A DNA stretch of 52,598 nt. Source: Candidatus Hydrogenedentota bacterium. GTDB lineage: Bacteria; Hydrogenedentota; Hydrogenedentia; Hydrogenedentales; CAITNO01. The position numbers and the translations under genes are program-made. The notes beneath the pieces are model-generated. The model searched no databases. It was not told the origin of the DNA and saw nothing but the letters and a program-made list of their open reading frames with translations. Shown here one piece after another: positions 20,288 to 23,045 of the stretch. The stretch lies in contig JAKOTZ010000256.1 of NCBI GenBank assembly GCA_029776995.1, forward strand, positions 1-52,598, in the 5' to 3' direction. How positions within the stretch are numbered: position 1 is the stretch's first letter; each line of letters begins with the position of its first letter.

Positions 20288-21511
20288 TCAGCCGGCCAAA
20301 TGTTCCTTCAGCAGACGAACCATTTCCCGCAGACGGTGCTGATAGGTATGCTGTTTCAGGACACGCTGACGCGCCCGAAGCGCCACGGAGCGCCTCGCGC
20401 CGGGATTCGCCAGGTAATCGCGGAGAAGTTCCCTGCACTCATCCAGCGTCTGCCAGTAAATTGCTTCGGCGCCAGGCTCAAACAGGTCGAAGAGATCCGG
20501 CTGCGCGTCGGTCAGCAGAAAACCGCCCGCGGCAGGGCACTCAAACACCCGCTGGTTAACGGCTCGTGGCATCTGGATGCTGGTGGCGTTTAAGTTAACC
20601 GGGCAGTCCCTGTAAAAATGCGGCAGGTCGACTTCATAATTCACGTAGGGGCCGCATTGTTCTTCGGGAAGATACCGAGTCCAGTCCGGGTCCCCCCGCA
20701 CGTGCAGCCCCTCAGGGGCGAGCGCGCGCGCCAGATCTATTCTCAGGCGCCGGGTGCCTTCCACGAAAGCGGCCATTTCAACTGCCCGCCGCAGCTCGGG
20801 ATCTCCCGCGAACATATCGCCGCCGCAGTCCAGCAGAGCTTGGGCGCCCTCCGCGAACCGCTGCCGGGTAACCCTGCCTGCGTCGAAGGCTTTTTCCAGG
20901 TTTTCCGCCGCGTCCGGGCTCATATGGCGAAGGCGTTGCAGCATTTCTTCGCTTTGCGCGGTCATCGAATTAGCGACCAGCGCGGGGGGCAGGGTCCAGG
21001 ATTCGGCGGGTTCGGCGTTGAACAGGGAGGTGTCGGCCGCCAGGGGCAGCCAGGCGGCCATGCCGAATCCGCGTTCGCGGAGGTAGGGGAGGTACGACGC
21101 GTCCCAGGAAAAGGCGACGGCCTCGGGAAAGGCCATCATGTCCGAGTCCATCAGGATGGTTCTGGGATCGTCCACGAACCAGGCCGCAATCAGCACCCGA
21201 AGGTCGCGGAATAAAGCGGCCAGCACGCCGCGGGTGTCCATGCCGCTCAGGTTGGCGGTCAGCACGAAATCGGGCTTGAACTCGATGAGGGTTAAAATCA
21301 GCCGTTCCAGCCCCTCCCGGGAGAAGTGCCCAACCATCGGCACAGGTACCGTTTCGCATTCCCAGCCCATGGACCGGGCAGCCCGGACGCACGCGACGTC
21401 AATCCAGTATTCTCCCCGAAGGATTAATATCCGCGGAACAGGACCGGCAAATTTCGGCCCCGACATTCTGTCCCGGATGGCCGGACCAATCTGAAAACGC
21501 AGGATGTCCAC
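20288..21511 (-). CDS. CgeB-like glycosyltransferase (group 1 type)
   Basis: The 407-residue protein resembles the spore-maturation-protein CgeB group: an N-terminal Rossmann-like half (ILILRGEYWIDVACVRAARSM; KPDFVLTANLSG; AAWFVDDPRT) and a C-terminal glycosyltransferase group 1 half with LNATSIQMPRAVNQRVFECPAAGGFLLTD, which matches the donor-binding region of this group. The acceptor and donor sugar are unknown. The longest start is a GTG at 21511 without a clear ribosome site; an ATG at 21466 is the main alternative. It lies 30 bases after the second mini-protein gene on the same strand and may be cotranscribed with it, making a peptide, surface glycan or glycolipid substrate possible. Confidence 0.78.
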   Translation of the reverse strand: MDILRFQIGPAIRDRMSGPKFAGPVPRILILRGEYWIDVACVRAARSMGWECETVPVPMVGHFSREGLERLILTLIEFKPDFVLTANLSGMDTRGVLAALFRDLRVLIAAWFVDDPRTILMDSDMMAFPEAVAFSWDASYLPYLRERGFGMAAWLPLAADTSLFNAEPAESWTLPPALVANSMTAQSEEMLQRLRHMSPDAAENLEKAFDAGRVTRQRFAEGAQALLDCGGDMFAGDPELRRAVEMAAFVEGTRRLRIDLARALAPEGLHVRGDPDWTRYLPEEQCGPYVNYEVDLPHFYRDCPVNLNATSIQMPRAVNQRVFECPAAGGFLLTDAQPDLFDLFEPGAEAIYWQTLDECRELLRDYLANPGARRSVALRARQRVLKQHTYQHRLREMVRLLKEHLAG

Positions 21512-21541: not shown

Positions 21542-21682
21542 TCAGAGTTTTCCGACGACAGGCGCCAGCGCCAGAAGAATTCCCCCGAGCGCGCTCATGA
21601 CGGTTCCCACGATGGTGACAACAGTCGCCGCCCCAACCTGAGCCTGCTGGGGAGCGGAAATAACGTGGAGATGTTTTTTCAT
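21542..21682 (-). CDS. Mini-protein B, 46 aa, paralogue of the adjacent mini-protein A
   Basis: This short frame encodes a polar start (MKKHLHVISAP), a QQAQ segment and a hydrophobic Gly/Ala/Val/Leu/Thr-rich stretch (about 19-42), ending APVVGKL. Aligned with the frame 15 bases upstream, 24 of 43 positions are identical, including KHL, ISAP, AQ, TIVGTV and APxxGK. Conservation of protein sequence in two neighbouring frames with differing codons is good evidence that both are real. No Shine-Dalgarno is obvious, so translation may be coupled to mini-protein A. No family is recognised. It could be a membrane peptide, a bacteriocin-like or modified-peptide precursor, or a small envelope protein. 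Confidence 0.7.
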   Translation of the reverse strand: MKKHLHVISAPQQAQVGAATVVTIVGTVMSALGGILLALAPVVGKL

Positions 21683-21697
21683 TAAAAAAGTTACCGG

Positions 21698-21832
21698 TTA
21701 TTTACCGATGAGCGGCGCAACGCTCAACAGGAGGGCGCCGATGGAGCTCAGCACCGTACCCACAATGGTCATGATGGTGGAAACACTGGTCTGGGCTTCC
21801 GCCGGAGCGCTGATTTTCCGCAGGTGTTTCAT
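21698..21832 (-). CDS. Mini-protein A, 44 aa, single hydrophobic segment, family unknown
   Basis: The ATG at 21832 has GGAG eight bases upstream, an ideal spacing, and lies about 50 bases after an extended -10 box. The product starts MKHLRKISAPAEAQ, continues with a Thr/Ser-containing hydrophobic segment (about 18-42, with TIVGTVLSSIGALLL) and ends APLIGK. It has no cysteines and no classical double-glycine leader, although ISAPxxAQ could be read as a leader boundary. Its paralogue follows directly. Upstream on the same strand is a sulfotransferase, downstream a glycosyltransferase. The peptide could span the membrane once; function is unknown. Confidence 0.75.
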   Translation of the reverse strand: MKHLRKISAPAEAQTSVSTIMTIVGTVLSSIGALLLSVAPLIGK

Positions 21833-21885
21833 CGCCTGATCTCCCATGGTTGATTCATGCCGCATTTTGATGCAGACCAGCCAGA

Positions 21886-21894
21886 AGTATAGCA
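21886..21894 (-). promoter_or_regulatory. Extended -10 promoter (TGCTATACT) of the mini-protein genes
   Basis: TATACT (21886-21891) is preceded by TGC, an extended -10 form. The predicted transcript start is about 45-50 bases before mini-protein A, and GGAG falls inside that leader. It indicates that the two mini-proteins, perhaps with the glycosyltransferase, are transcribed apart from the sulfotransferase. Confidence 0.5.
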
Positions 21895-21974: not shown

Positions 21975-23045
21975 TTACTGTTCCCGGAGCAAGACATCGA
22001 GGAACAGCCTGCACCGCTGCAGGAAACGTCGGAGGGCGGGGACCCTTCGTACAAGGGCGCGCCCGCGGACGATAATTTTCCGCTCGATACGGTAACGCGT
22101 GAGGGAAGCCCAGGGCGGCTTAACTTTCATGGCCCCGGCTTTTTCCAGAGGCGCCCAGAGGGTCTCCCGGGGATAACCGACAGTATTGAGGTCTTCATCG
22201 CTGACCTTCGCGAGCGCCCGCCGCATTAACTCAATCCGGTCCGGATGGTCCAGGAGGGCGGCGACCCACTTTGAGACCGAAGCGGTGGTGGGCCGCTGAT
22301 GGCGGTTTACCCCGGTCGGGTCTCCCAGTCCCTGCTGATGAAGGGTATCTTTCTCCGCGCGTCCGTACTCTATGGCCTCCTGCTCAAAGGGCAGATCCAG
22401 GTAGGCGCAGATCCGCTGGAATTCCGGTTCCGGCTGCCGCACGAGGTCCTCATAGCGGACATGAATCCGGGATGGGGTATCCTGCCGCAGAAAATCGGCG
22501 ATGGCGGGGACATACCGTTCAATGATGGGGTTGTGCCGATGCGCCTCCTGCCAGTCGTCGTCAAAGAAAGATTCCGCGAAGGACGCGAATACCGCGATGG
22601 GATGACGGGTGAGCACGACATACCGGGCGTCGGGATAGATTCGGGCCAGAAAAGGGAGGACCAGGGCGTAAGCGGGGGTTTTATCGAGGCAGTACCGCTT
22701 TCCCGGCCCATGGGCCTGGAGGTATCGCCCGTACAGGATGTCACAGTAAGCCCTGCAGGCGTCCCAGTAATCCGCCTCGCCCCTGGGCAGCCTGGAGACG
22801 AACAGTTTCTGCGCTTCCGCCGCCAGGATGGCGTCATAGGGCGCCTTGTCCACCTTGTCCCATACGCCGAGATGGGCCAGCGGGGTGATCAGGTGGGGTT
22901 CCGGTCCGCCCAGGATTTGGGAATGGCTGGAAAGCATCCGTTCCAGCATGGTGGTGCCGGACCGGGGCGCGCCGATAACAAAGATCATCTCGGGACGGAA
23001 GATGCCGTTGTCCCGAGTAGGTACCTGAGGGGCGTCGCTGGTCAC
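21975..23045 (-). CDS. PAPS-dependent sulfotransferase
   Basis: The 356-residue protein has the 5'-phosphosulfate-binding loop GAPRSGTTMLERML (25-38) and the 3'-phosphate region VVLTRHPIAVFASF (143-156), with HVRYEDLVRQPEP further on. It therefore transfers sulfate from PAPS to an acceptor. The family includes bacterial relatives of tyrosylprotein sulfotransferases as well as carbohydrate enzymes; the acceptor cannot be read from sequence. The C-terminus (about 310-356) is strongly basic. The start is a GTG with GGAG seven bases upstream. It diverges from wecB and precedes the mini-protein genes, so surface polysaccharide, lipid or peptide substrates are all plausible. Confidence 0.88.
   Translation of the reverse strand: MTSDAPQVPTRDNGIFRPEMIFVIGAPRSGTTMLERMLSSHSQILGGPEPHLITPLAHLGVWDKVDKAPYDAILAAEAQKLFVSRLPRGEADYWDACRAYCDILYGRYLQAHGPGKRYCLDKTPAYALVLPFLARIYPDARYVVLTRHPIAVFASFAESFFDDDWQEAHRHNPIIERYVPAIADFLRQDTPSRIHVRYEDLVRQPEPEFQRICAYLDLPFEQEAIEYGRAEKDTLHQQGLGDPTGVNRHQRPTTASVSKWVAALLDHPDRIELMRRALAKVSDEDLNTVGYPRETLWAPLEKAGAMKVKPPWASLTRYRIERKIIVRGRALVRRVPALRRFLQRCRLFLDVLLREQ

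Follow-up and report, generated by a model that had tools for sequence, protein, structure and literature searches.

Tandem small-peptide genes in Candidatus Hydrogenedentota and their proposed relation to a RiPP-like gene block

Two tandem small genes, ORF-A and ORF-B, in the window (the whole stretch of 52,598 nucleotides that was analysed) are real, selected protein-coding genes and not chance frames. Judged by profile comparison, they belong to a family of small peptides, named here the MKH peptides, which is shared with a peptide array on another contig of the same genome, C79. The MKH arrays and the six-gene block that follows them are read here as a putative new RiPP-like system for leader-guided acylation, cleavage, and export. 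In this reading, the two genes in the window would encode substrates, or paralogues, of that system without being linked to it. We infer both the RiPP logic of the MKH system and the function of the pair. The interest of the finding extends past the coordinates of the pair, which are unlinked members, to the family and its block within one phylum. The features discussed are listed in the table.

Coordinates of the tandem pair, its control signals and neighbours, and the array with its gene block
Feature	Coordinates	Strand	Details
ORF-A	21698..21832	-	44 aa, ATG start; MKHLRKISAPAEAQTSVSTIMTIVGTVLSSIGALLLSVAPLIGK
ORF-B	21542..21682	-	46 aa, ATG start; MKKHLHVISAPQQAQVGAATVVTIVGTVMSALGGILLALAPVVGKL
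Shine-Dalgarno region of ORF-A	21837..21847	-	around GGGAG; conserved in sister species
Extended -10 promoter-like element	21886..21894	-	TGCTATACT; 53 nt upstream of ORF-A
Sulfotransferase	21975..23045	-	Sulfotransfer_3, PF13469; upstream neighbour of ORF-A
CgeB-like glycosyltransferase	20288..21511	-	PF13524 Glyco_trans_1_2, PF12996 DUF3880; downstream neighbour of ORF-B
Array and complete six-gene block	L068:2366-9470 (G000:C79)	-	window's genome, contig other than that of the pair

The tandem pair and its neighbours

The stop of ORF-A and the start of ORF-B are separated by 15 nt, and the two products align without gaps at 24 of 43 identical positions, with 25 invariant columns. The tandem paralogy and shared motifs proposed in the first-pass annotation were thereby recovered from the ORFs and the ungapped alignment. 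ORF-A has a leader-like N-terminus (MKHLRKIS.P..AQ), a hydrophobic helix, and a terminal Lys, and ORF-B is its paralogue with one additional Lys after the Met. Neither product contains Cys, hydropathy over 19 residues is >2, and the fold of ORF-B was predicted by AlphaFold2 as a single long helix (residues 6-45). A search of Pfam and NCBIfam with the mini-proteins returned nothing above the cut-off, in agreement with the earlier view that they belong to no described family; DUF92 and SecE, for which the matches in these databases were sub-threshold only, were rejected.

The Shine-Dalgarno sequence claimed for ORF-A was found, and that of ORF-B is weak. The extended -10 element that had been claimed is also present, but no full promoter was called there by a simple sigma-70 scan; in the sister species TATACT likewise occurs upstream of ORF-A, at 39 nt. 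A terminator-like hairpin with a T run was observed between the two genes (21693-21709, minus strand), and the T run is missing from the sister species.

The sister genome, which is of the same genus, keeps the tandem pair, with 95% identity for ORF-A and 65-67% for ORF-B, the orthologue of which starts with TTG. Comparison of ORF-A with its orthologue gave 14 synonymous and 2 nonsynonymous differences (dN 0.021, dS 0.58, dN/dS ~0.04), and the corresponding values for ORF-B were dN 0.22, dS 2.2, and dN/dS ~0.1; these ratios are not near one and bear out the proposal that both are selected proteins. A search of 100 relatives gave matches in 25 genomes, among them all but one of the 17 genomes in the same family (16/17), and a 28-member profile gave strong matches in several families of the window's order. 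The conservation expected of homologues was also seen in relatives, at the start, in the P..A(Q) region, and at the Lys of the C-terminus. Matches on two other contigs in the first search (G000:C156 and G001:C109, E ~0.03) were hydrophobic stretches inside other frames and were rejected.

The identity and strand of the two flanking genes were as first annotated. Both genes adjoin the pair in the sister species too, and the linkage is confined to the genus; neither lies near any other homologue among the fetched homologue neighbourhoods. Because linkage stops at the genus, the flanking genes are judged functionally unlinked to the pair, and they were rejected as its partners. It is consequently very improbable that these two enzymes make an exported peptide that is sulfated or glycosylated, even with the shared strand, the close spacing, and the arrangement kept in the sister species in its favour. 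The more general suggestion that the peptide is modified or exported is plausible, but its tie to sulfation or glycosylation is unsupported, the neighbours being genus-limited.

The MKH peptides and their companion gene block

Weaker matches led to contig C79, where five MKH ORFs follow one another (L068 8276-9470, minus strand). Family members are mostly 40-70 aa long and carry the N-terminal motif M-K-H-h-x-x-h-S/T...P..A, with starts that are sometimes M-R-H or M-K-K-H. The array peptides were selected by an M[K/R]H start, and conservation of His3 is therefore not independent evidence; the other positions played no part in selection. At position 4, 100/100 MKH peptides have a hydrophobic residue or Thr/Ala/Cys, position 7 is I/L/V/M in 96/100, position 8 is S/T in 98/100, and a Lys occurs after residue 28 in 98/100. 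Three or more core types occur in the arrays. On C79, one core is a helix that terminates in K-E, another is of a two-Cys type (LCTN...LQARFCFVLAFLTEVFVPL...K), and a third is short (RADAFTNFMNAIWRAWMDFRYEKKNE); among the array peptides listed, most have no Cys, and the two-Cys type has two or three. Small precursors with a conserved leader motif (M-K/R-H-h-x-x-h-S/T) and differing cores, as is typical of RiPPs, are thus found in the arrays. Copy number varies, with one or two genes at each locus of unlinked (orphan) peptides and two to five per array in most clusters.

An array-only profile (A5), which excluded the window's pair, recovered ORF-A (E = 3.8e-9) and ORF-B (E = 6.9e-6) in a whole-genome search, and profile-profile comparison of orphan and array peptides gave a probability of 98% (E = 6.6e-14, first 37 columns), scores that are inflated by hydrophobic helical segments. 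As far as tested, the family appears restricted to Candidatus Hydrogenedentota, an uncultivated phylum known chiefly from metagenomes, and no Pfam or NCBIfam name was returned for the MKH peptides tested.

The arrays precede a block of constant order and strand (GNATa-GNATb-CPBP-ATPase-permease-MAT), encoding two GNAT acetyltransferases, a CPBP/Rce1-type intramembrane protease (PF02517), an ABC ATPase with a DrrA-like best NCBIfam match, an ABC permease, and the protein called here MAT. CPBP and GNAT domains were identified by Pfam, and the motifs EExxxR, FxxxH, and HxxxN are visible in the CPBP proteins. An automatic count found this order unbroken in 32 of 43 fetched loci; among the other 11, L136 holds all six genes and was missed because one GNAT match falls inside MAT, and ten are mostly contig-end fragments or have a gene that went undetected. 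In the 2.5 kb that precede the first GNAT gene of 31 clusters, M[K/R]H starts were found in 51 of 81 small ORFs with a Shine-Dalgarno sequence, compared with 0/259 at other positions in these loci (p = 9e-40). The GNAT genes adjoin those of array peptides in which Lys is positionally conserved, and the presence of three GNAT domains per block suggests acylation of the peptide.

MAT is a CteB-like protein of 600-680 aa with RRE and SPASM domains and a C-terminal GNAT fusion, and no Pfam match was obtained for it as the central enzyme. A MAT profile gave a single match to CteB (5WGG/5WHY) over residues 4-434 (E = 1.3e-40), and because the match covers this range the RRE region is shared with CteB. 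Foldseek with the AlphaFold2 model of MAT (mean pLDDT 82.7) placed CteB first (E = 3.8e-18), followed by GNATs, and the C-terminus matches RimL/SpeG-type GNATs both by profile and by fold. On profile and model, MAT would therefore be a modifying protein, adjacent to the arrays, with the leader-binding RRE domain seen in RiPP systems. The SPASM cysteines C392, C395, C401, and C424 (A6 numbering) are invariant. The radical-SAM motif CX3CX2C was found in 0/48 aligned MAT rows (27 + 21, partly from the same genomes), and MAT was rejected as an active radical-SAM enzyme on this ground. A CxCxxC motif was noted in the RRE-like hairpin (A6 columns C23, C25, and C28); it is invariant in A6 and missing in A3 from L132 alone.

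Proposed processing and competing explanations

The explanation favoured on balance is that the pair, although encoded apart from the main cluster, belongs to a leader-bearing family handled by the RRE/GNAT, CPBP, and ABC-2 machinery; its likely modifying partners are the GNATs and MAT on contig C79. We infer leader recognition by MAT, acylation and its site, the cleavage site, export, the biological role, and use in trans by the pair as follows. The N-terminal 12-16 residues would constitute a leader bound by the RRE of the CteB-like scaffold MAT, for which binding of the CteA leader to the RRE of CteB is a precedent (PMC8326336). The GNAT domain of MAT and the two stand-alone GNATs would acylate the peptide, possibly at the Lys after the hydrophobic helix that is present in nearly all members, as RiPP GNATs are known to act on Lys (PMC13060382). 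The CPBP/Rce1-type membrane protease may cleave close to the conserved P..A(Q) and so take off the leader, SagE having been proposed to remove the leader in streptolysin S (PMC4513790), and the ABC-2 exporter would release the hydrophobic helical core, which could act at the membranes of the producer or of rivals. ORF-A and ORF-B would use the C79 machinery in trans, which is the least certain step. The broader proposal of a system near-universal in the phylum, in which a radical-SAM/SPASM maturase has given up its radical chemistry to become an RRE-bearing scaffold on which GNATs acylate helical membrane-active peptides, and which serves clustered and dispersed precursors including the pair, is offered tentatively and is somewhat doubtful as a whole.

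Several findings count against the favoured explanation. The pair lies on contig C66 and the block on C79, so ORF-A and ORF-B lack the clustered modifying genes typical of RiPPs; orphan loci in other genomes adjoin housekeeping genes (Maf, aconitase family, Mbh, thiolase); and the orphan helices are themselves conserved (IVGT/S..G..L), in contrast to hypervariable RiPP cores. The missing linkage and the helix conserved in the orphan subgroup, together with the single long predicted helix, its 19-residue hydropathy, and the occurrence of orphan genes with Shine-Dalgarno sequences of their own in neighbourhoods that are stable and varied, would fit the main alternative, in which ORF-A and ORF-B, though derived from MKH peptides, are now independent single-helix membrane mini-proteins of regulatory or structural function, neither processed nor modified. 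We consider this rather unlikely, as the pair shares its N-terminal motif and its C-terminal Lys with the array peptides, features for which a free membrane protein has no obvious need.

Phenol-soluble modulins and leaderless bacteriocins are short hydrophobic helical peptides encoded in tandem with an ABC exporter, and the MKH arrays likewise combine such peptides with an ABC exporter. Tandem hydrophobic helical peptides of 40-70 aa beside a two-gene ABC exporter could accordingly be leaderless secreted amphipathic peptides (phenol-soluble modulin or aureocin type) exported whole by ABC-2, with the GNATs and MAT serving in self-protection or other functions. The MKH peptides differ, however, in that their N-terminal motif is conserved and that RRE, protease, and GNAT genes are dedicated to them; the motif, the RRE, and the membrane protease therefore point to leader-guided processing and make leaderless export improbable.

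Comparison with known systems and distribution

Among the closest known systems is the SCIFF ranthipeptide system, of which CteA is the peptide and CteB the thioether maturase, and in which the maturase carries CX3CX2C and the precursor has six Cys in ~45 residues. MAT shares the RRE, barrel, and SPASM architecture of CteB, and small leader-bearing peptides occur in both systems, but neither diagnostic feature is present here: MAT is without CX3CX2C in every aligned row and has an added C-terminal GNAT, ORF-A and ORF-B are without Cys, and MKH peptides are not of the six-Cys type. The MKH block also has extra GNATs, a CPBP protease, and an ABC-2 exporter. SCIFFs are widespread in Clostridia (PMC8326336), and the MKH system is likewise widespread in one bacterial group.

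The streptolysin S-like cluster, with the SagA precursor, the SagE protease, and the SagGHI exporter (PMC4513790), is similar in combining a precursor, modifying proteins, a suspected CAAX/CPBP-type leader protease, and an ABC exporter. It differs in that the azole-forming SagBCD proteins are absent among the six conserved MKH genes, which have other domains, the MKH modification would be acylation, and there are several different precursors per cluster. In the GNAT-acylated RiPPs, which include the selidamides and nostolysamides (PMC13060382) and goadsporin (PMC5303826), GNATs act on ribosomal peptides including Lys side chains, and the GNATs of the MKH block may by analogy do the same. In contrast to these RiPPs, the six conserved genes include no lanthipeptide synthetase, the leaders are in our opinion unlike NHLP or Nif11 leaders, and a GNAT is fused to a degenerate radical-SAM/SPASM scaffold. 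If the interpretation is true, an RRE/SPASM protein without the radical-SAM motif and fused to a GNAT represents an unusual reuse of a maturase scaffold. No description of the MKH system was found in a literature search that had most subscription papers outside its scope and several narrow or ill-matched queries, and the peptide family and gene block are apparently undescribed so far.

MAT was found in 62/68 genomes of the window's order and in 0/32 genomes outside it, so that the named peptide family has a companion block whose MAT occurs in about nine in ten sampled genomes of the order; conservation this close to universal points to a core role in physiology or signalling. A scan of a genome collection using two exact peptide patterns returned 51 MAT loci, nearly all titled Candidatus Hydrogenedentota or Hydrogenedentes and two titled uncultured bacteria only; absence of MAT elsewhere is only as strong as these two patterns and the 32 out-of-order genomes. 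One locus titled Nitrospiraceae (L139, JAACEL010000057.1) carries the block and is probably mis-assigned, being apparently contig G057:C638 from a genome of the window's order. The plasmid collection gave one partial SPASM match only. An MKH match at E <= 1e-3 was obtained in 1/6 genomes of the order without MAT and in 45/62 with MAT (Fisher p = 0.012), counts that were read by hand from search results for genomes that are not independent and in several cases incomplete. Because MAT is near universal in the order and the genomes are incomplete and related, this test is weak, and the co-occurrence is supporting, not decisive.

For dispersed members such as the pair in the window, the question arises whether a single machine processes them in trans. 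In family f7, orphan MKH peptides occupy stable unlinked positions beside a thiolase gene (L048, L051, L052, and L058), with antiporter-like (Mbh-type) genes also adjacent in three of the four loci. A further unlinked MKH-type ORF with a GGGAG Shine-Dalgarno sequence was located in the window's genome at L244:4025-4153 on the minus strand (G000:C102; MKHMRGVSKGPSKGQISNFQVLMDFLVKLTDQIIEYVFIKTS).
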